Shown here: positions 436-31,896 of the stretch, piece by piece | How the letters are laid out: each line of letters begins with the position of its first letter | Numbering within the stretch: position 1 is the stretch's first letter | From: Longimicrobiales bacterium | Lineage (GTDB): Bacteria > Gemmatimonadota > Gemmatimonadetes > Longimicrobiales > Gaopeijiaceae | DNA length: 32,285 nucleotides | Assembly (NCBI GenBank): GCA_028823235.1 | Contig: JAPKBW010000022.1 | Location: 1-32,285, forward strand | Direction: 5' to 3' | Notes under the pieces: model-generated | Told to the model about the DNA's origin: nothing | Seen by the model: the letters and a program-made list of their open reading frames with translations, nothing else | Databases searched by the model: none | Position numbers and translations under genes: made by a program

Positions 436-1242
436 CTAGGTAGTTACGCCGCGCTCACTCGCGCGAATGAACTCGATCATGTGCCGCACTTCTGGCACGC
501 CGGTGATCTCGGCTTCAGCCCGATTCAGGGCCTTCGAAAGCATGACATCACCCTGAAAGAGCATCCGGTACGTCGCCTTGAGCGCCTTCTGTGTCTCATT
601 GGACAGCCCGCGGCGCTCCAGTCCTACTTTGTTCAACCCGTAGAGTTTCGGCGGGTTTCCAGCGGCCCGACAGTACGGAGGCACGTCCTGAGGGACCCGA
701 GATCCCCCACCGACGAACGCATGCGCGCCGATGCGAACGAACTGGTGAATCGGAGTGACCCCACCGACGATGACCCAGTCCTCGATATGAACGTGACCCG
801 CCATGTTCACCGCATTGGCGAGGATCACGTGATTTCCAATTTCGCAATCGTGGGCGACGTGCGTGTATGCCATCAACAGGCAGTCACTTCCGACGACCGT
901 GCGACCGGAAGCCGCGGTCCCACGGTTCAACGTGGCGAACTCACGAATCACCGTGCGATCTCCGATGCTCAGTTGAGCCTTTTCGCCTTTGAACTTGAGA
1001 TCCTGCGGATCCGTGCCCAGCACCGCGCCGTTCGCAATAAAACAGTCGTCGCCGATAGTCGTGTCCTTTTCGATCAACACGCGGGGACCGACCTCCGTGC
1101 CTGCGCCCACCTTCACGCCAGGTCCAATCAGGGCCCACGGTCCAACTATTACGCCATCCCCTAGTTCAGCGTCGGCGTGCACGATCGCCGTGGAGTGAAT
1201 CTGGGTTTCACCCCGCGTACTCAAAGATACCTGTTCACTCAT
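436..1242 (-). CDS. lpxA: Acyl-[ACP]--UDP-N-acetylglucosamine O-acyltransferase LpxA
   Basis: LpxA carries out the first step of lipid A synthesis, moving a 3-hydroxyacyl chain from ACP to the 3-OH of UDP-GlcNAc in the cytoplasm. The 268-residue product (E. coli has 262) begins with left-handed beta-helix hexapeptide repeats (about residues 15-190), has NRGTAASGRTVVGSD around 106-120 and THVAHDCEIGN at 127-137. His131 matches catalytic His125 of E. coli. The C-terminal third is the usual helical trimer domain. I chose the ATG at 1242, one base after the TGA of lpxC-fabZ; an in-frame ATG at 1257 inside that gene would add five residues. The tight junction implies translational coupling. Confidence 0.95.
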   Translation of the reverse strand: MSEQVSLSTRGETQIHSTAIVHADAELGDGVIVGPWALIGPGVKVGAGTEVGPRVLIEKDTTIGDDCFIANGAVLGTDPQDLKFKGEKAQLSIGDRTVIREFATLNRGTAASGRTVVGSDCLLMAYTHVAHDCEIGNHVILANAVNMAGHVHIEDWVIVGGVTPIHQFVRIGAHAFVGGGSRVPQDVPPYCRAAGNPPKLYGLNKVGLERRGLSNETQKALKATYRMLFQGDVMLSKALNRAEAEITGVPEVRHMIEFIRASERGVTT

Positions 1243-1243
1243 C

Positions 1244-2530
1244 TCACTTATCCACAATCCGAGCCATGAATTCAGCCTCAGCGACGACGTGCCCGTCCAC
1301 TAAACCGCGACCGGCAATCCGGCAAATTTGTCGCCGGAATTGAACGACATGCAATTCGAAGACTAGTGTGTCCCCCGGAGTGACCGGCCGCCGGAATTTC
1401 ACGTTATCCATCGTCATGAAGTACACGACTTTACTCTCCGGATCCTCCACATGATCCATGAGAAGCAGACCGCCGCACTGGGCCATAGCCTCCAGGATGA
1501 GGACGCCAGGCATGATCGGATGACCTGGGTAGTGCCCCTGAAAGAACGGTTCGTTGATCGTGACGTTCTTGATTCCGACGATGCTCTCGCCCGACACGAA
1601 ATCAATGATCCGGTCGACCAGCAACATCGGATACCGGTGCGGCAGGAATTCCATAATACGCGCGATATCGGCCACCGGCGGGCCGGCGCGACGAATTTGC
1701 TTACGGATGGCGCGTGCGAGCTCGACGTTCCCCGTGTGGCCCGGACGCTCAGCAACGACATGGGCCCTCAGGCGCCCTCCGAGCAGCGCTAGGTCGCCGA
1801 CGAGATCACCCACCTTGTGCCTAAGGAATTCGTCTTCGAATCGGAGCCCCTCCTCATTCATGACTCCGTCCTTCCCGATTACCACCGCGTTGTCCAAAGA
1901 TGCTCCCAGCGCAAAGCCACGCGCATGGAGCGCCTCGGCGTCGGCCTGGAAGCCAAACGTGCGCGCGGGTGCGAGAGCCGATTGAAAAGACGATTCATCT
2001 ACTAGGAATGAACCGAAGCTTCGCCCGATCCGTTGGTCTTCGAAGTCGATCGTCGCGGAGATTCGCAACGCGTCGGCCGGTGTCACGACATAGGATGAGC
2101 CACCGGCTTCTTCGACGTGAACGACCGATGGCACCGTGAAAATCTCTGCCTCTTCATCCTGATCTACAGCTCCCGCGTCATGCAGCGCTGCAGAGTACTC
2201 TTGAAACGATCCGTCGCGAATCGGAACCTCCTGCCCGTCCATTTCGATGAGCACGTTGTCGATGCACCCACCTGAAAGAGCGGCCATGACGTGTTCGACG
2301 GTCAGCACACGTGCTTCACCACTCGCGAGCGTCGTGCCGAACTCCGTGGCAATCACGTGCTCCACGGTGGCGGGGATCTCAGGCGCATCGTCGAGGTCCG
2401 TTCTCCGGAATCGAATCCCTGTCCCGGCCTCAGCAGGATTGAACCGAATAGAGGCGCCCTCTCCCGAATGGACGCCGACCCCGTCGAGCGTGATTTTCCG
2501 AGCGATGGTGCGCTGTGAAGGCCGACTCAT
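1244..2530 (-). CDS. lpxC/fabZ: Bifunctional UDP-3-O-acyl-GlcNAc deacetylase / 3-hydroxyacyl-ACP dehydratase (LpxC-FabZ fusion)
   Basis: One 428-residue chain carries two enzymes. Residues 1 to about 280 are LpxC, the zinc deacetylase that commits UDP-GlcNAc to lipid A. Its zinc ligands are visible as VEHVMAAL (His80), HKVGDLVGD (His238, Asp242), and the catalytic His lies in RPGHTGN (His265). Residues about 288-428 are FabZ, the hot-dog-fold dehydratase of fatty acid elongation, with LPHRYPMLLVDRI, then GHYPGHPIMPGVLILEAMAQ containing catalytic His333 and Glu347. There is no stop or frameshift between the halves. This fusion is known from Bacteroidota/Chlorobi and relatives and puts two enzymes that compete for the 3-hydroxyacyl-ACP pool on one chain. 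The ATG at 2530 gives a normal LpxC N-terminus. It lies 125 bases downstream of lpxD. Confidence 0.97.
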   Translation of the reverse strand: MSRPSQRTIARKITLDGVGVHSGEGASIRFNPAEAGTGIRFRRTDLDDAPEIPATVEHVIATEFGTTLASGEARVLTVEHVMAALSGGCIDNVLIEMDGQEVPIRDGSFQEYSAALHDAGAVDQDEEAEIFTVPSVVHVEEAGGSSYVVTPADALRISATIDFEDQRIGRSFGSFLVDESSFQSALAPARTFGFQADAEALHARGFALGASLDNAVVIGKDGVMNEEGLRFEDEFLRHKVGDLVGDLALLGGRLRAHVVAERPGHTGNVELARAIRKQIRRAGPPVADIARIMEFLPHRYPMLLVDRIIDFVSGESIVGIKNVTINEPFFQGHYPGHPIMPGVLILEAMAQCGGLLLMDHVEDPESKVVYFMTMDNVKFRRPVTPGDTLVFELHVVQFRRQICRIAGRGLVDGHVVAEAEFMARIVDK

Positions 2531-2596
2531 GCGGTAGAACCTCGCTCGTTACGGGGCGCGGTGGTGCGGGCTTCGAACGTTAAAAAAGTAACGACT

Positions 2597-2619
2597 AACC
2601 CGATGGTTACCTACGGGTT
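2597..2619 (-). other. Weak hairpin in the lpxD-lpxC/fabZ gap
   Basis: AACCCG and CGGGTT form a six-base stem around an 11-base loop. On the minus strand a TTTTTT run follows nine bases later (2582-2587). It could be a weak attenuator between lpxD and lpxC-fabZ, but the stem is short and the T run is not adjacent. I see no convincing promoter in this 125-base gap. Confidence 0.2.
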
Positions 2620-2655
2620 GCGGCGTGCAAGTCATATATCCCAATGCCCCGTCCA

Positions 2656-3723
2656 TTACCCGGACTTGAGTCTCTCGACCTCTTCTTCCAACTCCCGAAT
2701 ACGCTCGAGCATCTTGGGGATTCTCCCGATACGAGCCTGACGCCAAACCTCATCCACATGAGGGATGGCCGGGAATCCGGATACCGTCTCACCAGCCGGT
2801 ATGTCTCGTGTGACCCCGGATCGCACCGCGATGCGGGCGCCATCTCCGACCTCGACCTGGTTGATCACCCCTGACTGACCGCCGATCCAAACCCCTTTGC
2901 CCACTCTCGTCGATCCAGCCACCCCGGACATCGCGGCGATCAGTGTCATCGCACCAATTTTCACGTTGTGCGCGAGGTGAACCAGGTTGTCGATCTTCAC
3001 GCCCATGCCGACCCGGGTATCACCTAACGATCCCCGATCCACCACCGTATTCGCACCGATCTCGACACCATCGCCGATGATGCACCGACCGATCTGTGGC
3101 ATTTTCGCGTGCTCGCCGTCGACGAATGTGTATCCAAAGCCGTCCACGCCGAGGGTCACACCACTGTGGATGATGACGTCGCTGCCGATCTCCGTGTCAT
3201 AGTAGACCACCACATGGGGATAGAGTCGCGTCCGATCACCTACGACAGTGCCATGTTGAAGGACGCAATGCGCTCCGATCCTTGTGCCTGCTCCGACGCG
3301 GACTCCCTCCTCGAGCACGGCGTACGGGCCGATCGCAATGCCTTCGCCGAGCACGATGTCCTCGGCCAAGACCGCCGTCGGATGAACACCCGGCGTCCAC
3401 ACGTCCCGTGGCGCAAAGTGCGATTGAAGGCGGCGCAGCGCCGGATACGGATCAACCACGACGATGCTCGCCGCGGAATCGGGCACCAGAGAGACCAAAT
3501 CTTCCGAGACCAGGTACGCAGAGCCTTGGCAGCCCCCCACATGCTTTCCGTACTGGCGGAGAGCCAGAAAGGCGATCTGGCCCGCAGTGGCCTCGTCCAC
3601 CGGTGCGACACCGGTGATAGCCTTGTCACCCGCTCCCGACAGGGTGCCCCCCACGAGATCGGCCAACTCTGCGAGCGTCGGGAGGCTACGTCGAGTCGTG
3701 TCGCTTACATCGTCTTCAGGCAT
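2656..3723 (-). CDS. lpxD: UDP-3-O-(3-hydroxyacyl)glucosamine N-acyltransferase LpxD
   Basis: LpxD adds the second hydroxyacyl chain, at the 2-amino position, in lipid A synthesis. With the ATG at 3723 the product is 355 residues (E. coli has 341). It has an N-terminal uridine-binding domain (LAELADLVGGTLSG, then IAFLALRQYGKHV), hexapeptide beta-helix repeats from about 113 to 320, the GVDGFGYTF loop near 192-200, and NLVHLAHNVKIG at 246-257, where His252 corresponds to the catalytic His239 of E. coli. The C-terminus ends in a short coiled coil (RIRELEEEVERLK). Upstream in-frame ATGs at 3768 and 3798 would add up to 25 residues with no domain support. It follows skp by about 97 bases, as in many BAM-LPS clusters. 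Confidence 0.95.
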   Translation of the reverse strand: MPEDDVSDTTRRSLPTLAELADLVGGTLSGAGDKAITGVAPVDEATAGQIAFLALRQYGKHVGGCQGSAYLVSEDLVSLVPDSAASIVVVDPYPALRRLQSHFAPRDVWTPGVHPTAVLAEDIVLGEGIAIGPYAVLEEGVRVGAGTRIGAHCVLQHGTVVGDRTRLYPHVVVYYDTEIGSDVIIHSGVTLGVDGFGYTFVDGEHAKMPQIGRCIIGDGVEIGANTVVDRGSLGDTRVGMGVKIDNLVHLAHNVKIGAMTLIAAMSGVAGSTRVGKGVWIGGQSGVINQVEVGDGARIAVRSGVTRDIPAGETVSGFPAIPHVDEVWRQARIGRIPKMLERIRELEEEVERLKSG

Positions 3724-3820
3724 GGTCGATTCTAGGTTTCCTGAATGCGGGAAGGACCCGCCGGGCATTAAATCTGCTCCGCGAGTCCTTCGCTCCACTC
3801 ATGATCTTTGCTTAGTGCTC

Positions 3821-4357
3821 TTAGTCGCCGCCCTGCCCTGCTCCTGGCGTAGACTGAAGCCGCATGATGACTTCCTGCGTCAGGTCGAGCGCGGGGTCGG
3901 CTGAAACGATCGAGCCGGACGCAGCATCCAAAATTATGGAGTAGGCCCCCTCCTCGCGCATCGTCTCAATGATCGCAGTGATGTTGTCCATCACTGGCTG
4001 AATCAAGGCAGCTCTGCGTTGCTCTGCGAGCTGCTGAAGCTGCGTGGTGCGCTGCTGATACTCTTGGAACTTTGCCTGCAACTGGGCCTCCCGATTAGTC
4101 CTCGCTTCAGGCGAAAGCGTCAACTGCTGCTGCTGAAGCGCGGCTTCCAAGTTCTGGAGCTCTGTCTCGGTCTGCGTGACCTCAGCCTGATAGCCCGCCA
4201 TCTCGGCATCAAAGGCGGCCCCGGCAGCCTCCGCACCAGGCGCGTTGGCTAGAATTTCCTGAGAATTGATGTAGGCAATTTTTAGTGTCTGTGCCTCGGC
4301 GGCTCCGGCCGAGAGCAAGAAGGCCAGCGCCAGAAGCGCAAAAGACGTGCGTCGCAT
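3821..4357 (-). CDS. skp: Periplasmic OmpH/Skp-family chaperone
   Basis: Skp is a periplasmic holdase that keeps outer-membrane proteins soluble on the way to BamA. From the ATG at 4357 the product is 178 residues: a signal peptide MRRTSFALLALAFLLSAGAAEAQ, a conserved IAYINSQEIL strand at the mature start, a Gln/Glu-rich coiled-coil arm about residues 50-125 (ETELQNLEAALQQQQ, QEYQQRTTQLQQLAEQRR), and a closing head segment (YSIILDAASGSIVSADPALDLT). A GGAG lies eight bases before this start; an in-frame ATG eight codons upstream is possible but breaks the signal peptide layout. Its place between bamA and lpxD is the classic one. Confidence 0.93.
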   Translation of the reverse strand: MRRTSFALLALAFLLSAGAAEAQTLKIAYINSQEILANAPGAEAAGAAFDAEMAGYQAEVTQTETELQNLEAALQQQQLTLSPEARTNREAQLQAKFQEYQQRTTQLQQLAEQRRAALIQPVMDNITAIIETMREEGAYSIILDAASGSIVSADPALDLTQEVIMRLQSTPGAGQGGD

Positions 4358-4511
4358 AATCCTGACTCCGTGTTGTGTCATGCCACCGGACTCTCGTAAT
4401 CCCCTCAAGGCCGGCAGGCTCCCGTGTTCCCCATGCGACCCGTCAATGAGCCGCGAGCATAGCATCTAAATGTGTAAAGGCTGCCAAAATATGTACAGTC
4501 GCTCCGATTGA

Positions 4512-6968
4512 TTACAGTCCTGCGCCCATCCGAAAATGGAGCTGCCATCCAGGCACCGTCCGATCGAGTCCATACGCGTAATCGAGCCCAATCGGTCCAA
4601 ACGGCGTCACGATCTGCATCCCCACACCAACCCCTCGATACAGGGTGGACGGATCGAAGTCGCGAGGATTCCTCCAAACGCTTCCCGCATCGTAGAAAAC
4701 GTGCACCCCGAGCTGGCCACCTAGTCGCGCCGCGTACTCCGCAGTCAGACTAAAAAAGGCGTCCCCAAGTCGGGCGATGTCCGTGATGTCGGTCGACCCC
4801 TGTGGGAAGAAGCCCCTCGGCGTGATGGAAGTCTCGTCGTACCCGCGGAGGTTTTGTCCGAACTGCACACCACCCATCCAGAATCGATCAAACGGGAATG
4901 CCGCAGCATCGCCGAAGATCGCACCCGCGCGCAGAGTTAGCCCAAGAGCAAACGCCACACCTCCACCCTGCGGGTCTCCCCCGATCTGACCGGTCGGCAC
5001 CCACCAAGTTCCGTCACCGAGCACACGCGTAAAGTCACCATCACCGCCCAAGAAGCCACCATTCTGCTCAAGGGTGACGTTCTGGCGTGAACCGACGGTC
5101 GGGAAGATCGGATGATTCAGAGTCTGCCGCGTGATACTACCTGAGAGCTGGCTCTGGACTCCCGGTGGGCGACCGAACAGCGACGTATCATCAACGTCAC
5201 TGAACAGTTCGTAGTTGGTCCGGGAAAGGCTGTATCCAACGAAAAGTCGTGTGTACTGCGACCCCCGCCAAGGGAAGCCGAGGCGGAAATTCGCCCCAAG
5301 ACGCTTCCGCTGCCCTGTCGAGAACTGGAAGAAGCGGTCACGTGAATTGAACAGCGCAACCGTGCCGGAGGTTCTGGTCTGGAGCAGAGCCGGATCGGTG
5401 TAGGACATCTCAAAGCTGTTGATGTAGCGGCCGAAGTCCCAGCGTAGCGACCCCGATTTCGCTTGACCGAACAGGTTCGGCTGATCGTATCCGATGAAGC
5501 CGGAGAGCCCCACTCCACCTCCGACAGACGTACCGAAGTTTATCGAGCCAGTCTGCTTCTCTTCGACCTGGAAAGTCAGGTCGACATCGCCGTTGTCGAG
5601 CGGCGTGATATCGGGAAACGGGAGTGGCGCCTCGAAGAAGCCAAGGGCCGAGATGTTCTGATATGTCTGCATCACCCGGTCCTGGCTGTATACGTCTCCA
5701 GGGAAGACGAACATTTGGTTTCGAATCACCCATTCGTAGGTGTATTCGTTCCCCTTGATATTGACCCGATTGATGATGGCCGGCTGCCCCTCATTAATCT
5801 CCCAAGAGGCATCGACTGTAGGCGGCTGGTCACCTTCCGCTTCGTTGATGCTCACGACCGGATTCACCCGGACGTACAGGTACCCCTCATTCCGGTAAAG
5901 CTCCTCAACGCTTTGAATCGCGAGGTTGAACGCTTCCGCGTCGAAGAGCTGCCCTTTTTCGTTCGCCGTCCCGCCACTCCCACCGAACCCGAGACTCCCG
6001 AGGATGCCGCCACCGCGGGTCGAGCGGAACAGCTCCTGGAGCTCTTCCACTTCGAAGACGGTGTTGCCGTCGACGGCGAAGTCACCGAGTTGGTATTGGT
6101 CTCCTTCGTCGACCGTCACCTCGACCCGTGCTTTCCCGCTCTCCGGGTCGACGATGATCGTGTCTCCCAACACCACGAAGTCGAGATAGCCGCGAGACCT
6201 GTATAGTCGGGGCAATTCTTCTTCGAGATCGCTCAAAAAATTGACCTGACCGAACGTTCCGTCTCGGAACCACCAGAAACCCTCGGCAGAGGTCGACATG
6301 ACCCCACCCAGCTCTTTGTCTGTCAAGCCTTCATTTCCCACGAAGTCGAGCTGAGCGACCGTCACTCGTTGGCCCTCGGACACATCGAGAATGAGTTCGA
6401 TCTCGTTCGAGGCTCCCTCGATCGCTACCCGTCGATCGGTGATCTCCGCAAAAGGAATGCCCTCACTAGCCAACTCTGATCGGATAAACGCCTTCGCGTT
6501 AATGATCTTCTGTTCGCTAAGCGGAAAGCCCGAGTTCAGGCCCGTCGTGTCGCGCACTTGCCGTGCCGACACGTTCTGAAGTCCCTCGATCGCCACCCTG
6601 CGGATGAGGGGAGCTTCCAGCACCTCGACCGTGAGAATGTAGGGGGCGACCCCTGCGCCGCGCGGCTCACTAGCTCGAATCACTACGTCAATGAATTGAC
6701 CCGTGTTCAGCAGTTCCTTGGTGCCGCGCTGAACCGCTCGATAGGTGATCTCTTGTCCGGGTTGGATCGCGAACAGGGACAGAATGAACTGTGCCTGAAT
6801 GCGAACATTTCCCTGAACTTCGAGAGAATCAACCTGAACCAGCCCTTCGGCCTGCTCCTGTGCTTCTACGGCTGTCGATGACAGTGCCGCCACGACGCCA
6901 AAGAAAGCCACCGCAAGTGCGGTAGCCTTTCCGAGACGGTGAGCGACGATGAGGACTCTCTGACTCAC
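4512..6968 (-). CDS. bamA: Outer-membrane protein assembly factor BamA (Omp85)
   Basis: BamA folds and inserts beta-barrels into the outer membrane. The 818-residue product has a signal peptide ending near AVEAQ, POTRA repeats over about 40-430 (typical: VDSLEVQGNVRIQAQFIL, RRVAIEGLQNVSARQV, YQLGDFAVDGNTVFEVEEL, INRVNIKGNEYTYEWVIR), and a 16-strand barrel over the last ~380 residues with GGVQFGQNLRGYD, the LRGY form of the conserved loop-6 RGF/RGY motif. The chain ends in FRMGAGL, so the last residue is Leu, not the usual Phe/Trp of a beta signal. Its ATG overlaps the clpC stop (ATGA), implying coupled translation with an unrelated protease gene. About 150 bases without a gene follow before skp. 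Confidence 0.97.
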   Translation of the reverse strand: MSQRVLIVAHRLGKATALAVAFFGVVAALSSTAVEAQEQAEGLVQVDSLEVQGNVRIQAQFILSLFAIQPGQEITYRAVQRGTKELLNTGQFIDVVIRASEPRGAGVAPYILTVEVLEAPLIRRVAIEGLQNVSARQVRDTTGLNSGFPLSEQKIINAKAFIRSELASEGIPFAEITDRRVAIEGASNEIELILDVSEGQRVTVAQLDFVGNEGLTDKELGGVMSTSAEGFWWFRDGTFGQVNFLSDLEEELPRLYRSRGYLDFVVLGDTIIVDPESGKARVEVTVDEGDQYQLGDFAVDGNTVFEVEELQELFRSTRGGGILGSLGFGGSGGTANEKGQLFDAEAFNLAIQSVEELYRNEGYLYVRVNPVVSINEAEGDQPPTVDASWEINEGQPAIINRVNIKGNEYTYEWVIRNQMFVFPGDVYSQDRVMQTYQNISALGFFEAPLPFPDITPLDNGDVDLTFQVEEKQTGSINFGTSVGGGVGLSGFIGYDQPNLFGQAKSGSLRWDFGRYINSFEMSYTDPALLQTRTSGTVALFNSRDRFFQFSTGQRKRLGANFRLGFPWRGSQYTRLFVGYSLSRTNYELFSDVDDTSLFGRPPGVQSQLSGSITRQTLNHPIFPTVGSRQNVTLEQNGGFLGGDGDFTRVLGDGTWWVPTGQIGGDPQGGGVAFALGLTLRAGAIFGDAAAFPFDRFWMGGVQFGQNLRGYDETSITPRGFFPQGSTDITDIARLGDAFFSLTAEYAARLGGQLGVHVFYDAGSVWRNPRDFDPSTLYRGVGVGMQIVTPFGPIGLDYAYGLDRTVPGWQLHFRMGAGL

Positions 6969-9451
6969 GTCTTGGTCGCCGACTCCGCACGAAGGATGAG
7001 GCCCGGTTCGTCCGGATCCAAATCGACCTCAATCTCGTCGCCCCCGGTGAACTCGGCCTGTAGAATTTTCTCGGACAACGGATCCTCAAGGTGTCTCTGG
7101 ATCGCCCTCTTAAGGGGGCGCGCTCCGAACTTCTCGTCGTATCCCTCGTCGACGAGAAACTCGAGTGCGGCATCGGTGAACCGGAGAGTGATGCCCTCCT
7201 CTGCAAGCCGACCCCGCACATCCTCCATGAGAATGTGAATGATCTCGCCAATCTCCAGCTTCGTCAGAGAGTGGAAGACGATGGTGTCGTCCACACGGTT
7301 AAGAAACTCCGGGTTGAATGCACGTTCGATTTCCTGACTCACTTTGTCTTTCATGATGTCGTAGCTCGCCTTCGGATCGGCCATCTGGAATCCGAGGCCT
7401 CCGCCCTTGCTGATGTCTCGGGCACCGAGGTTGGACGTCATGATAAGCACGGTGTTCTTGAAGTCGATCACTCGACCGTAGTTGTCAGTCAGATGTCCCT
7501 CGTCGAGCACTTGCAAAAGGATGTTGAAGACATCGGGGTGGGCCTTCTCGATCTCGTCGAGAAGCACGACCGAGTAGGGGCGACGCCTCACAGCCTTCGT
7601 GAGAGCGCCGGAATCCTCATAACCGACGTACCCCGGAGGTGCACCTATCAGACGAGACACAGAGAATTTCTCCATGTACTCGCTCATGTCAACACGAATC
7701 AGCGCCTCGCCATCGTCGAACAGGAATTCAGCGAGAGCCCGCGCCAGCTCCGTCTTACCCACGCCGGTCGGACCGGAGAAGATGAATGAGCCGATTGGAC
7801 GCCGTGGATCCTTCAGGCCTGCCCTGCTACGGCGAATCGCTCGACTGACGGCCGTGATCGCATCATGCTGGCCGACGATCCGTTTGTGGAGTTCGTCCTC
7901 CATATGCACCAGGCGCTCAGACTCCGTCTGAGCAATGCGCTGCACAGGAATCCCCGTCCAACGACCAACGATGAAGGCCACTTCTTCGGTGGAGATTTCA
8001 GGACGGTGCTGCTTACGCTCTTCCTCCCATGCCTCCTGACGGGCGCGAATCACTTCGCTGTGCTCCCGTTCCTCGTCCCTGAGTTCCGCTGCACGCTCGA
8101 AGTCCTGATCACCGATTGCCTGTTCTTTCCGGTTCGCGATCTGAACCAACTGCTCCTTAAGTTCCTCGACGTCGGCCGGCGGAACCGCGTTGGCAATCCG
8201 CGCTCGCGAGCCCGCCTCATCAATAACGTCGATCGCTTTGTCGGGGAGGAAGCGGTCCGTGATATACCGATCTGCGAGCTTGGCGGCGTGCTCGAGCGCA
8301 TCATCGGGAATTGTGACACGGTGGTGATCTTCGTAGTGGCCACGCAGGCCCTTCAGGATCTCGACGGTCTCTTCAACTGCGGGTGGGTCAACGATGACCG
8401 GCTGGAAGCGACGCTCGAGCGCGCCATCCTTCTCGATGTACTTGCGGTACTCGTTGAGGGTCGAGGCCCCGATGCACTGCAACTCACCGCGCGCGAGCGC
8501 CGGCTTGAGCATGTTCGACGCATCGATCGCACCTTCAGCCGCACCGGCACCGACGAGCGTATGAAGCTCATCGATAAACAGGATGACAGTCTTGCTCTCC
8601 TGGATCTCGGTCATTACCGCTTTCAGGCGCTCCTCGAACTGACCGCGGTACTTGGTCCCGGCAATCACCGCAGCCATGTCGAGCGCGAGGACCTTGTGAT
8701 CCCTCAGGGCCTCGGTGATCCCACCTGCGGCGATAATCTGTGCGAGGCCCTCCACCAGCGCGGTCTTGCCCACCCCTGGCTCTCCAATGAGCACAGGGTT
8801 GTTCTTCTTGCGACGGCAGAGAATCTCTACGACACGTTCGATCTCATCAGCCCGCCCAATGATTGGATCGAGTTTTTTCTGCTTCGCCAGTTCCGTCAAG
8901 TCACGACAGAAGTGGTCGAGTGCCGGCGTCTTGGATTTCTTGTCCCCGCCCTTGCCGGATCCCGGCGTCACGTCGCCCCCGCCCCCGATTCCAGCGGGCT
9001 CGGACGGAGACATGTCACTACCCAAGACCTTGAGGGTCTCTCCTCTCGCTTCATCGAGGGTGACACCAAGTGAGTTCAGCACCTGGGCCGCGATCCCCTT
9101 CTCTTCCCGAAGCAGGCCAAGCAACAGGTGCTCCGTACCCACATAGGAGTGATTGAAGTCACGGGCCTCGGCCATCGCGAACTCGAGGACCTTCTTCGCC
9201 CTGGACGTATAGGGGAGTTCCCCGAGTGAGATCGTCGCCTTGCCCTTCCGGACAGATTCTTCGACACGCTCGTGGATCTGATCCAGATCAACACTGAGGT
9301 TTTGCAGCACAGCCGAGGCCACGCCCTCTCCTTCGCGAATGAGGCCGAGCAGAATGTGCTCCGTCCCCACGTAGTCATGCTGAAGGCGGATGGCCTCTTC
9401 TCGAGCCATCGCGAGGACCTTTCGGACCCGGTCGGTAAAATTGTAGTTCAT
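6965..9451 (-). CDS. clpC: ATP-dependent Clp protease ATPase subunit ClpC
   Basis: ClpC is a AAA+ unfoldase that feeds substrates to ClpP. The 828-residue protein has two N-terminal Clp repeats (residues about 1-70 and 78-145, each with YVGTEHxLLGL), AAA domain 1 with Walker A GEPGVGKT at 223-230, a middle domain carrying a UVR-like segment ([18 protein letters not shown]), and AAA domain 2 with [14 protein letters not shown] and [18 protein letters not shown]. The length and UVR-like middle domain mark ClpC and not ClpA or ClpB. It directly follows mcsA and mcsB, matching the adaptor/arginine-kinase system of Firmicutes, so substrates are probably selected by phosphoarginine. No clpP lies in the window. 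Confidence 0.97.
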
Positions 9452-9457
9452 AACCCG

Positions 9458-10594
9458 TCAGGGCTGGGCGGATTGATCGTCGCCGCGCGATTCGTCGTCG
9501 CTCGGAGAGACTTCACCTTCGGTGGCTAGGACACGACGCACATAAGCGGCTCGATGCGCGTCGCTTTCCTCGATAGAAAGCTCGCGGCCGGCCGCCTGTT
9601 CCAGGTGAGCCAGCTGCGTGAATACCATCATCTTGTTGAGTGAGTATACACGGAGTCCGGGCAACAGTTTCAGACTCATGCCCATCCGTACTGGAGCTAG
9701 GAAACCCATGAGCTCGTCGAAGGAGAGCAGGCGAGCATAGCGCAGCGTACCGTACGCCCTCCACACCTTGTCCTCGGTCTCCGCACTGGCGTCGCGAATG
9801 AGGATCTGACGCGCCTTCGCCTCGTCCCGGATCAGCTTGCGTACAACCCGATCGAGGTGGTCGACAAGGTCCTCTTCGGTCCGCCCGAGTGTGGTCTGAT
9901 TGGAGATTTGGAAAAAGCTTCCGACGACCTCTGACCCCTCACCAAACAGTCCGCGAAACGTCAGCCCCAGCTCCGTGATGCCTTTCAGCGCGGCCGTGAT
10001 CTCACGAGTCTCGACCAGCCCGGGAAGGTGCATGAAGACCGAAGCACGGAGTCCTGAACCGACATTCGTCGGGCAACTTGTAAGGAAGCCGAATTCGGGG
10101 TGGTACGCGAAAGGAAGCTCCCGCCCCAACTCCTCGTCGAGCCGGTCGACAATGTCCCAAGCCTCGTGGAGGCGTAACCCGGAAAGAAGGCTCTGTACCC
10201 TGAGGTGGTCTTCCTCGTTGACCATCACTGATACGGGCTCTCGCCGGGAGAAGTGTACTGCAGTACCGTGCGCTGGGTCGTCTCCCGCCTCACCCAGAAG
10301 ATCACGCGTCACCAGCCGACGCTCGTATAGAATCCGCCGCGTGCGTTCGGAAACCGTGGGCATTTCCAGAAGTGCACCGCCCCGCAGCACGTCCGATCGC
10401 TCGACCGAGTGCCTGAACTGCTTCAGTACCGCCTCTCGATCGTTGACGCGGGCACGGGGGCCAAACGCGTAGCCCTGAAGATTCCTGGCGATTCGAACCC
10501 GAGTCGACAGTACGATGTCCGAATGCTCTCCACTCGCCTCTAGCCAGCTGAGGCCGTGATCCGGGATCGCTTCAAAGTCGTTCACAAGGCCCAC
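9458..10594 (-). CDS. mcsB: Protein arginine kinase McsB
   Basis: McsB phosphorylates arginine side chains on proteins, marking them for ClpCP. The 378-residue chain is a phosphagen-kinase-like catalytic domain: LSTRVRIARNL at 29-39, the guanidino-kinase signature CPTNVGSGLRASV at 174-186, and GLFGEGSEVVGSFFQISNQT near 215-234, which holds the Glu expected to be the catalytic base. The C-terminal domain has SLNKMMVFTQLAHLEQ and ends in a hydrophilic tail. A GTG at 10594 is the longest start; the GTG three codons later (10585) has GAGG eight bases upstream and may be the real one. It starts immediately after mcsA and is followed by clpC six bases on. Confidence 0.95.
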   Translation of the reverse strand: MGLVNDFEAIPDHGLSWLEASGEHSDIVLSTRVRIARNLQGYAFGPRARVNDREAVLKQFRHSVERSDVLRGGALLEMPTVSERTRRILYERRLVTRDLLGEAGDDPAHGTAVHFSRREPVSVMVNEEDHLRVQSLLSGLRLHEAWDIVDRLDEELGRELPFAYHPEFGFLTSCPTNVGSGLRASVFMHLPGLVETREITAALKGITELGLTFRGLFGEGSEVVGSFFQISNQTTLGRTEEDLVDHLDRVVRKLIRDEAKARQILIRDASAETEDKVWRAYGTLRYARLLSFDELMGFLAPVRMGMSLKLLPGLRVYSLNKMMVFTQLAHLEQAAGRELSIEESDAHRAAYVRRVLATEGEVSPSDDESRGDDQSAQP

Positions 10595-10595
10595 C

Positions 10596-11102
10596 TCATA
10601 CGGGCTCCAGTGTATTTATCTGGTCCCGAATCTCCGCCGCGCGCTCGAAATCCTCAGTCTGAACAGCCCGTTCGAGTCTCCGGCGCAGTCCTTCTAGTCG
10701 GCGTTCCATCTCCGAAGCGCTGGGATCCGGAGACAGATAGACCTTGCCGACGTGCTTCGAGCCGCCGTGGATCCTTCGCAACAGCGCGGGCAACGCGGCC
10801 CCGAACGTCTCGTAGCAGTGCGGGCAACCAAGACGGCCGGTCTTCTTGAAATCCTTGTAGGTCATGCCGCAAAAAGAGCATTCGCCGTTTCCCCAGTCGC
10901 GCTCAGCAACCGACTCCTGCGTCATCTTCGACAAGACGTCCAGCAGCGGCTGTTCTTGCATCTGCGGGGCCGTCTCAAGCCCCTTCTCCGCAGCACACTT
11001 CTCGCAAAGGTGGTGTGTCGAAATCTCATCATTGACGATCTGCGTGAGATGCACGACGGCATCGGTCGAACCACAGTTTCCACAAGTCATGTCACCCATC
11101 AT
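10596..11102 (-). CDS. mcsA: McsA, zinc-finger/UVR activator of McsB
   Basis: McsA activates the arginine kinase McsB in the Clp system. The 168-residue product has two four-cysteine zinc sites, Cys7/Cys10/Cys33/Cys36 and Cys75/Cys78/Cys93/Cys96 (CSFCGMTYKDFKKTGRLGC), and a C-terminal UVR motif (residues about 134-168, LERAVQTEDFERAAEIRDQI) like the one in ClpC and UvrB. The first ATG overlaps the lolD stop as ATGA; ATGs at codons 2 and 5 are alternatives. The order mcsA-mcsB-clpC is that of the Firmicute ctsR operon, but no CtsR repressor gene is present; lolD takes the upstream place. Confidence 0.94.
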   Translation of the reverse strand: MMGDMTCGNCGSTDAVVHLTQIVNDEISTHHLCEKCAAEKGLETAPQMQEQPLLDVLSKMTQESVAERDWGNGECSFCGMTYKDFKKTGRLGCPHCYETFGAALPALLRRIHGGSKHVGKVYLSPDPSASEMERRLEGLRRRLERAVQTEDFERAAEIRDQINTLEPV

Positions 11103-30637: not shown

Positions 30638-31066
30638 TCACGCCGTTCCAGACGAGAGGACAAGGCTTGCCGCGAGCGGTATTCGGGCGACCCATGCGAG
30701 GGTGCGAATCCAGTTGGTGGCCACAAGCCACCTGTGAGCCTGCGTGTCGAAGCCTCGCCGGAGTGCCGAGTGCGCGGGCACTTGAAGCAGCGCGGTCGAA
30801 GCCCAGATCATCACCAAAAGACCAAACCCAATGATCGCCACTTCGCGCCCTTCGACACGCGTAGCCACGAGCCATACGGCTGCCAGGGCCTCAGCCAGCA
30901 TGGGTATTCCCACGACTCCGCTGGTCAGCACCCCATGCCTAGATTGGTATTCGACGTACCCGGACGCCCCTATGTGCGCCATAAGCGGATAGTGAACGAA
31001 CTGAACGAAGACAATGACTCCGGCCATGAAAGCCGTAGCCACGAGATGCACGAGCTCAACCGCCAC
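30638..31066 (-). CDS. Four-helix membrane protein of unknown function (142 aa), last gene of a small-membrane-protein operon
   Basis: The product has about four hydrophobic helices: LVHLVATAFMAGVIVFVQFV, GIPMLAEALAAVWLV, VAIIGFGLLVMIWASTALL and a C-terminal WVARIPLAASLVL. Between the last two is ALRRGFDTQAHRWLVATNWI. The HYPL motif after helix 1 and the AHRWLVATNW segment look conserved, and I associate this pattern with DUF1772/DUF4149-like membrane proteins, from memory and without certainty. GTG start at 31066, overlapping the end of the 46-residue gene by 11 bases, so it is translationally coupled to it. No catalytic motif is evident. Confidence 0.72.
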   Translation of the reverse strand: MAVELVHLVATAFMAGVIVFVQFVHYPLMAHIGASGYVEYQSRHGVLTSGVVGIPMLAEALAAVWLVATRVEGREVAIIGFGLLVMIWASTALLQVPAHSALRRGFDTQAHRWLVATNWIRTLAWVARIPLAASLVLSSGTA

Positions 31067-31196
31067 TGCGCTCAGGTCCGACGGCTTGCTGATCCGTCTC
31101 GGTCGCCGAGAAGCTCGCCCTCGCGAGCACGTAACTTCCGGCTAAGAACAGGAACATCACACCGCAACCGAATGCGAGCAGTGTTCTGTCATCCAT
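31056..31196 (-). CDS. 46-residue single-pass membrane protein
   Basis: From the ATG at 31196 the product begins MDDRTLLAFGCGVMFLFLAG, has one TM helix (about 6-25) and a polar C-terminal tail with an acidic bias (SATETDQQAVGPERSGG). GGGA lies seven bases before the ATG. The start overlaps the end of the 70-residue gene by eight bases, and its own stop lies inside the next gene. These nested overlaps make it very likely to be real despite its size. Function unknown; a small subunit of a membrane complex formed by this operon would fit. Confidence 0.65.
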   Translation of the reverse strand: MDDRTLLAFGCGVMFLFLAGSYVLARASFSATETDQQAVGPERSGG

Positions 31197-31401
31197 GGTT
31201 GTTCCCTGCCAGCAGGAGCGCACCAGCTGAGCAGATGGAGGGCACCCAGATGCCAACAAAGAGCCCGCGCTCCCGGTCTCCGCTGAACCACAGCGTGACA
31301 GAAAGAACGAACGACAAGAAGGCGGCCGTGAGAAAGAAGGCCTTGGCGATCCTGATCTTCCTTTGTTCAGCGAATTGGTTTGAACGGTCAGGCGAAGTCA
31401 T
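31189..31401 (-). CDS. 70-residue two-helix membrane protein
   Basis: ATG at 31401 with AGGAG eight bases upstream. The product has a polar N-terminus (TSPDRSNQFAEQRKIRIAK) and two hydrophobic helices, AFFLTAAFLSFVLSVTLWF and GLFVGIWVPSICSAGALLLA, joined by SGDRER. The GLFVGIWVPSI motif seems to recur in small proteins next to DoxX-like genes in FCB bacteria (recollection, unverified). It begins 31 bases after the DoxX-like gene and overlaps the next gene. Function unknown. Confidence 0.7.
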   Translation of the reverse strand: MTSPDRSNQFAEQRKIRIAKAFFLTAAFLSFVLSVTLWFSGDRERGLFVGIWVPSICSAGALLLAGNNHG

Positions 31402-31432
31402 GTAAGGTGCTCCTAGATGATTTTTCGGTGAT

Positions 31433-31804
31433 TCACAGAGAGTGAATGACCGCGACCGCGGTGGACATGAAGAGCATGAGCGACGCAGGAAGGGCCTTGG
31501 TCCAAGGATCCCGAATCCGAATGTGGGCAATGACCGCCGCCACCATCAGCAGAGCCATCAGGACCGCGGCAGTCGTTGCCAGTGAGCTGAAGTAGATCCC
31601 GGCCACGAGAGCCGCAGCTAGGGCAAGCTTTGTTATCCCGACTGCCCGGCGGACCCAGTCAGGCAGGCCGTACCGGGTGAATTCTTCGGCCAATGAACTG
31701 GCGCCTTCCGGCCGATAAGGCGTGGAACGGTCGGCGCGCAGGATCCAGACGTTGGCAATGCCAAGTGCGATGATGATTTGGAGAGCGACCGCGACGTTAT
31801 CCAC
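31433..31804 (-). CDS. DoxX-like membrane protein, first gene of the operon
   Basis: The 123-residue product has four hydrophobic helices (VALQIIIALGIANVWIL; VGITKLALAAALVAGIYF; TAAVLMALLMVAAVIAH; LPASLMLFMSTAVAVIHSL) with STPYRPEGASSLAEEFTRYG and LPDWVRRAVG between the first two. This TM layout and the YGLP-W-x3-VG-x2-K pattern are DoxX-like. DoxX relatives include quinone-linked membrane proteins, but no quinone site can be assigned here. GTG start at 31804 with a full AAGGAGG six bases upstream, the strongest ribosome site in the window. It leads a four-gene cluster with overlapping members. Confidence 0.8.
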   Translation of the reverse strand: MDNVAVALQIIIALGIANVWILRADRSTPYRPEGASSLAEEFTRYGLPDWVRRAVGITKLALAAALVAGIYFSSLATTAAVLMALLMVAAVIAHIRIRDPWTKALPASLMLFMSTAVAVIHSL

Positions 31805-31856
31805 AAAAGGCCTCCTTAATTTTATTTATACAACGGATCTACAAATGCTCTCGGAT

Positions 31857-31885
31857 AGCATCGCGGTCGCTGATTCAGCTGTCAA
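31857..31885 (-). promoter_or_regulatory. Candidate sigma-70 promoter of the DoxX operon
   Basis: Minus strand TTGACA (31885-31880), a perfect -35, then a 17-base spacer and GATGCT (31862-31857) as a weak -10. The leader to the GTG would be about 45 bases. A weak -10 with a perfect -35 fits a regulated promoter. ATGCT and AGCAT form an inverted repeat around a seven-base loop at the -10. Confidence 0.45.
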
Positions 31886-31896
31886 TCCTTGTACAA
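31875..31896 (-). promoter_or_regulatory. Possible operator: two 11-base direct repeats including the -35 box
   Basis: The minus strand reads TTGTACAAGGA then TTGACAGCTGA, two units in exact 11-base register; TTGTACAA is also an 8-base palindrome. As I recall, the B12-dependent light sensors CarH/LitR (MerR family) bind tandem 11-base repeats overlapping a -35 box. No such regulator gene lies in the window, so this is an inference from layout only. Confidence 0.35.

Follow-up and report, generated by a model that had tools for sequence, protein, structure and literature searches.

What function might be shared by four small membrane protein genes that follow one another closely near a contig end in a Longimicrobiales bacterium? 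The window analyzed here, a stretch of 32,285 nucleotides, carries these genes on its minus strand, with the contig end 481 bp upstream of the first gene. A preliminary description had proposed that the genes encode a membrane complex of fixed stoichiometry, perhaps with a redox function. The four genes and their sizes, the gap of 31 bases between P1 and P2, and the overlaps of 8 bases (P2/P3) and 11 bases (P3/P4) were exactly as that description gave them.

31804-31433, minus strand: P1, DoxX_2-family membrane protein of 123 aa with a GTG start, four transmembrane (TM) segments and AGGAGG at 31811-31816, 6 nt upstream
31401-31189, minus strand: P2, 70 aa with an ATG start, two TM segments, AGGAG upstream and the motif FVGIWVPSI; no family
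31196-31056, minus strand: P3, 46 aa with an ATG start and one TM segment; no family; 8-base overlap with P2
31066-30638, minus strand: P4, 142 aa with a GTG start and four TM segments; no Pfam family; 11-base overlap with P3

The numbers of membrane segments were assigned by hydropathy and agree with the earlier view that all four products are membrane proteins. When the four proteins were searched against profile libraries, P1 matched DoxX_2 (PF13564) with a Pfam E-value of 1.2e-15 and a score of 58 bits against a cut-off of 26.3, the match spanning profile positions 22-100 of 103. P2, P3 and P4 had no significant family in Pfam or NCBIfam, a PHROGs search found nothing, and neither P1 nor P4 had sequence relatives in the PDB. 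A scan of the operon region for a consensus sigma-70 promoter and a terminator found none. Conservation was assessed in 59 relatives: P4 was 49-57% identical in 14 of these, and the best identities reached 79% for P2 and 73% for P3. As they are conserved in relatives, P2, P3 and P4 are not chance open reading frames. Moreover, at nearly all P2 loci a P3-like single-helix reading frame follows P2 with an overlap of 8 or 4 bases; these loci span four phyla and include some in Actinobacteria, Planctomycetes and Acidobacteria. Elsewhere in the window, ClpC-like (828 aa), McsB-type arginine kinase-like (378 aa) and McsA-like (168 aa) genes were read by eye from the translations as a row at 6965-11102 on the minus strand, and LpxA-, LpxC/FabZ-fusion-, LpxD-, Skp- and BamA-like outer-membrane biogenesis genes form another row at 436-6968 on the same strand, an ordinary arrangement assigned from translations only.

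The genomic surroundings of P4 provide an indication of function. The P4 alignment was scanned over about 85,000 species genomes, which returned 507 relatives, and neighborhoods were compiled from 80 loci that were kept. These loci belong to Planctomycetota, Acidobacteriota, Actinomycetota, Myxococcota, Verrucomicrobia-type bacteria and others. Of the 80 loci, 49 have one or more light-cluster genes within 5 kb of P4. DPRP, a cryptochrome/photolyase class with an FeS cluster (PMC3204975), was present within this distance at 22-26 loci and an FAD oxidase at 13-24, the ranges depending on threshold and labeling. Photolyase (17 loci), SDR (18), DUF2867 epimerase (seven), fasciclin (six) and CarH-type MerR-B12 regulator genes (five) were found within the same interval, as were DUF1295, DUF2177 and cyclopropane synthase genes (three to four loci each). 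Within the genus, the gene for a 509-aa DPRP protein follows the DoxX-P4 pair, and the pair and an FAD amine oxidase gene are divergently oriented; DPRP was not found in the window genome. In G235, a genome of another family in the same class, DoxX-P2-P3-P4-DPRP together with SDR, fasciclin and CarH genes are contained in one 6-kb stretch. In places, the neighbors of lone P2-P3 pairs include a photolyase-like gene and an NAD-epimerase gene in G006, an NAD-epimerase gene in G008 and a histone-deacetylase-like gene in G025.

Two further observations were made at these loci. At 15 of the 80 loci (e.g., L150:2762-3736 and L152:578-1561), an undescribed membrane domain is encoded directly before P4, with an SRPBCC (polyketide cyclase) domain either fused to it or following it; a relationship between this family and DoxX was tested and none was detected. 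Lone P4 homologues with 38-41% identity, annotated as hypothetical, occur on Deinococcus plasmids of three strains (L278, L279 and L280). The neighbors of these genes, and those of a Rubrobacter plasmid gene that resembles P2, are unrelated and gave no clue.

The DNA upstream of P1 was compared with the CarH operator consensus nnnnTnnACAn (PMC9304148).

31827-31843, minus strand: candidate operator, two perfect tandem 11-bp CarH-type repeats, TGTAGATCCGT followed by TGTATA; the plus strand reads TATACA-N5-TCTACA
31879-31895, minus strand: possible degenerate upstream repeat pair, TGTACAAGGAT followed by TGACAG; second unit imperfect, read by eye

The candidate operator is situated 22 bp upstream of the P1 start codon and is the sole TGTnnA pair in the 32-kb window. 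TGTnnA pairs spaced by 11 or 12 bp were counted in the 200 bp upstream of related operons, with 500 dinucleotide shuffles as the control. Ten P1/P4 operons possessed 21 pairs compared to 0.13 expected, with at most two in any of the 500 shuffles, and seven P2-P3 operons possessed six pairs compared to 0.06 expected, three of the seven being without any pair. Alignment of eight P1/P4 upstream regions, that of the window included, revealed 12 invariant columns of which nine form TGTnnA-N5-TGTnnAA. Strict triple TGTnnA repeats were present once each in G006, upstream of the NAD-epimerase/photolyase operon, and in G008, upstream of P2-P3. No TGTnnA repeat pair was seen at the G235 locus, and beyond Gemmatimonadota the CarH repeats in the vicinity of P4 did not exceed control patterns; thus other lineages may use other regulators. 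The window genome has only one strict triple TGTnnA repeat with 11-bp spacing (L202:7189-7216; G000:C5:144188), about 105 bp upstream of a gene for a 158-aa lipoprotein-like protein that is followed by a DUF5777 beta-barrel gene; this repeat may be a chance occurrence, with one match per genome, or an unexpected CarH target. The neighborhoods and operators, which the preliminary description had missed, point to control of the operon by light or photo-oxidative stress.

A CarH homologue with MerR_1, B12-binding_2 and B12-binding domains is encoded in the window genome (L203:6465-7394), on another contig and so not adjacent to the operon. The protein includes the motifs WVDDEVSPAQEH (Wx9EH) and ERHGLG (D/ExHx2G), which are markers of AdoCbl-dependent CarH. 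Its gene is flanked by genes for an FAD amine oxidase, a photolyase-like protein, DUF2177, DUF1295 and cyclopropane synthase, and the 14-kb locus contains only three repeat pairs, all in the two divergent promoters of the CarH cluster. CarH-type regulator genes elsewhere in the genus (L207:7107-8069, L208:6188-7126 and L209:6228-7184) are transcribed divergently from a gene for a fasciclin-domain protein, and TGTnnA repeats lie between the two, an arrangement which suggests that the fasciclin protein of the genus is light-regulated. On the combined pattern of repeats, neighbors and regulator, the P1-P4 operon probably belongs to a CarH/light regulon. A response to light or singlet oxygen might instead be governed by ChrR-sigmaE, by a LOV protein with class II LitR, or by another repeat-binding protein. 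Similar gene sets are under ChrR-sigmaE control in Vibrio (PMC5241685) and under class II LitR plus LOV control in Pseudomonas (PMC9758184), and a sigma-70-type gene is located upstream of P4 at locus L130. However, the repeats display both the sequence and the spacing of CarH sites and the genome's own regulator retains both AdoCbl motifs, which render control by a different regulator rather improbable.

The P4 protein was modeled by AlphaFold as a confident four-helix bundle (pLDDT 95.5). Residues Q22, H25, Y26, H44, E59, H99, N118, W119, R121 and W125 are invariant across 75 homologues. With helix boundaries as predicted, Q22, H25, H44, H99, N118 and R121 appear to cluster near one membrane face, with E59 positioned deeper in helix 2, and the positive-inside rule would place that face on the cytoplasmic side. 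A fold search of the model against the PDB retrieved generic helix bundles only, none with E < 0.001. HemJ/UPF0093 (protoporphyrinogen IX dehydrogenase) resembles P4 in having about 140 aa and four membrane helices, and at the profile level the two may share a weak full-length similarity. The UPF0093/HemJ family (PF03653) was matched weakly by 23 of the 75 P4 homologues (best 9.6e-6), and HHalign comparison of P4 with genuine HemJ genes yielded E 4.6e-4 and a probability of 33% over 128 columns; in the corresponding control one short column-shuffle artifact scored better, but none did over 60 or more columns. The genuine HemJ genes were located with an approximate consensus query and the returned database sequences alone were used as evidence. 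The HemJ invariants, PR...YH in helix 1 and a K84-type lysine, are not conserved in P4, which has VQxxHYP and no conserved lysine. As the invariant residues of HemJ itself are missing, P4 would be no more than a distant relative that is equipped differently.

The match to HemJ in both size and helix number, together with the weak profile hits, raises the alternative that P4 is itself a HemJ-type porphyrin enzyme, or a related protein that removes photosensitizing protoporphyrin, in which case the operon would be a light-induced porphyrin-safety module. Instead of the HemJ residues, however, P4 has an invariant set of its own, its gene context differs from that of HemJ, and no P4 gene was beside heme genes at the loci seen, so that the porphyrin alternative is distinctly unlikely. 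Weaker similarity was noted to Anthrone_oxy/DUF1772 (PF08592), which was matched by 17 of the 75 homologues (best 0.0025), but not by P4 itself, and which gave E 0.0057 and a probability of 6.5% with P4 in HHalign. The C-terminal VPxxxxL...N.IRT of these four-helix proteins resembles QVPxH..L...NWIRT in P4, whereas P4 has neither their NxPLN motif nor their RWNxWN motif.

The order of the genes in relatives bears on whether the four products function jointly. Nine genomes from the genus and family have a P1 orthologue directly upstream of P4, with nothing between. As the two genes are directly adjacent across relatives, we infer that P1 and P4 act together. The second pair, P2-P3, is mostly on a different contig from P1-P4 or is absent. 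The pairs are combined at three places: the window; G024, where all four genes are together in the permuted order P2-P3-P1-P4; and locus L264 of G235, which has the exact window order DoxX-P2-P3-P4 and the same 8-base overlap between P2 and P3. DoxX and P2 genes are also neighbors in G293 and G243. The four genes are, therefore, a real module that is made of two sub-modules, DoxX-P4 and P2-P3. The recurrence of gene order within Gemmatimonadota, proposed as a check in the preliminary description, was seen in G235, and in looser form in G024, but across most of the genus the genes are separated or some of them are lacking. Scattering, which had been named as an argument against a common complex, was thus evident in much of the genus, whereas the order was kept across families. 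Because most genomes of the genus carry the pairs apart, the four proteins need not have a fixed stoichiometry.

Co-occurrence was evaluated across a single set of 295 genomes of the class. P4 was accompanied by DPRP in 13 of 17 genomes compared to 3.2 expected (p 1.2e-7) and, outside the genus, in six of nine compared to 1.5 expected (p 8.5e-4), P2 was accompanied by DPRP in 15 of 25 compared to 4.7 expected (p 1.5e-6), and P4 and P2 were found together in seven genomes compared to 1.4 expected (p 1.5e-4); these p-values ignore shared ancestry, an effect which the figures from outside the genus soften only partly. The separation of the pairs in most of the genus and the altered order in G024 would be accommodated if the operon were accidental, an unrelated P2-P3 pair having inserted into DoxX-P4 with no joint function. 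This is improbable in view of the identical order in another family, the co-occurrence of P2 both with P4 and with DPRP, the presence of P2 within 5 kb of P4 at eight of the 80 loci in several phyla, and the occurrence of the same repeats at separate P2-P3 operons. The reading advanced in the preliminary description, a stoichiometric four-protein membrane complex unrelated to light such as a quinone-linked oxidoreductase, accords with the tight overlaps, the four membrane proteins and the exact order in two families, but is highly improbable as the modules are separable and the light-gene context is left unexplained.

Overall, the evidence favors, with reasonable but not strong confidence, the interpretation that P1-P4 form a light-inducible photoprotection operon under CarH whose products act in the membrane. 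Several observations weigh against it: DPRP is missing from the window genome, the operon and the CarH gene lie apart, the window has no more than two perfect repeats, repeat pairs are lacking at three of the seven separate P2-P3 operons and at G235, repeats around P4 do not exceed controls beyond Gemmatimonadota, and P2-P3 is separate from P1-P4 in much of the genus. In the dark, AdoCbl-bound CarH would occupy the repeats at 31827-31843 and repress transcription. Light would break the B12 cofactor and CarH would leave the DNA, whereupon P1, P2, P3 and P4 would be produced along with photolyase, FAD oxidase and lipid-modifying enzymes. The four products would then act in the cytoplasmic membrane in protection against photo-oxidation. 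The HemJ-like four-helix P4, with its invariant His/Glu/Arg/Asn site, might associate with its DoxX_2 partner as a redox unit in the membrane, either to limit photo-oxidative damage or to handle a porphyrin- or quinone-like ligand, and P2 and P3 may be small accessory subunits. A membrane redox role for the products is possible, if doubtful. A bolder proposal, which we consider unlikely, is that P1-P4 constitute an undescribed light-induced membrane redox complex that is conserved in several phyla, in which HemJ-like P4 with an invariant three-His/Glu/Arg site, DoxX and two micro-subunits would conduct porphyrin or quinone chemistry or pass electrons to photolyase-type flavoproteins under photo-oxidative stress.

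The analysis defines three families without prior description, P2, P3 and P4, two of which show co-occurrence with DPRP, the FeS-cryptochrome family, across the class, and it recovers two micro-proteins of the kind that annotation pipelines tend to miss. It also provides a testable promoter, and it brings the function of the uncharacterized membrane side of the bacterial response to light within reach of direct tests.

DoxX proteins participate in oxidative-stress resistance, and DoxX of M. tuberculosis forms a membrane oxidoreductase complex with SodA and SseA (PMC6930017). P1 is a DoxX_2 member and, whereas the M. tuberculosis protein is partnered by SodA and SseA, P1 is accompanied by P2, P3, P4 and light-repair genes. 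The M. tuberculosis complex may thus be viewed as a precedent for DoxX in oxidative defense, short of proof for P1, and it is plausible that P1 has a redox role.

CarH/LitR regulons, which are known in connection with carotenoids and photolyases, also contain many unnamed membrane proteins. A literature search found no paper that combines DoxX with CarH or photolyase, or Gemmatimonadota with CarH. Like CarH/LitR regulons and the PplR1 regulon of Pseudomonas putida, the present system has tandem TnnACA repeats at 11 bp, and the set likewise includes a photolyase, a cryptochrome-like protein, an FAD oxidoreductase, an SDR and unknown genes (PMC9304148; PMC9758184). CarH with the Wx9EH and D/ExHx2G motifs is common to CarH/LitR regulons and the window genome (PMC9304148; PMC9758184). 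The two differ in that the spacing in the conserved relatives here is 12/11, unlike the 11-bp repeats of CarH/LitR, and in that the known CarH/LitR targets are carotenoid genes, whereas the candidate target operon described here encodes four small membrane proteins.
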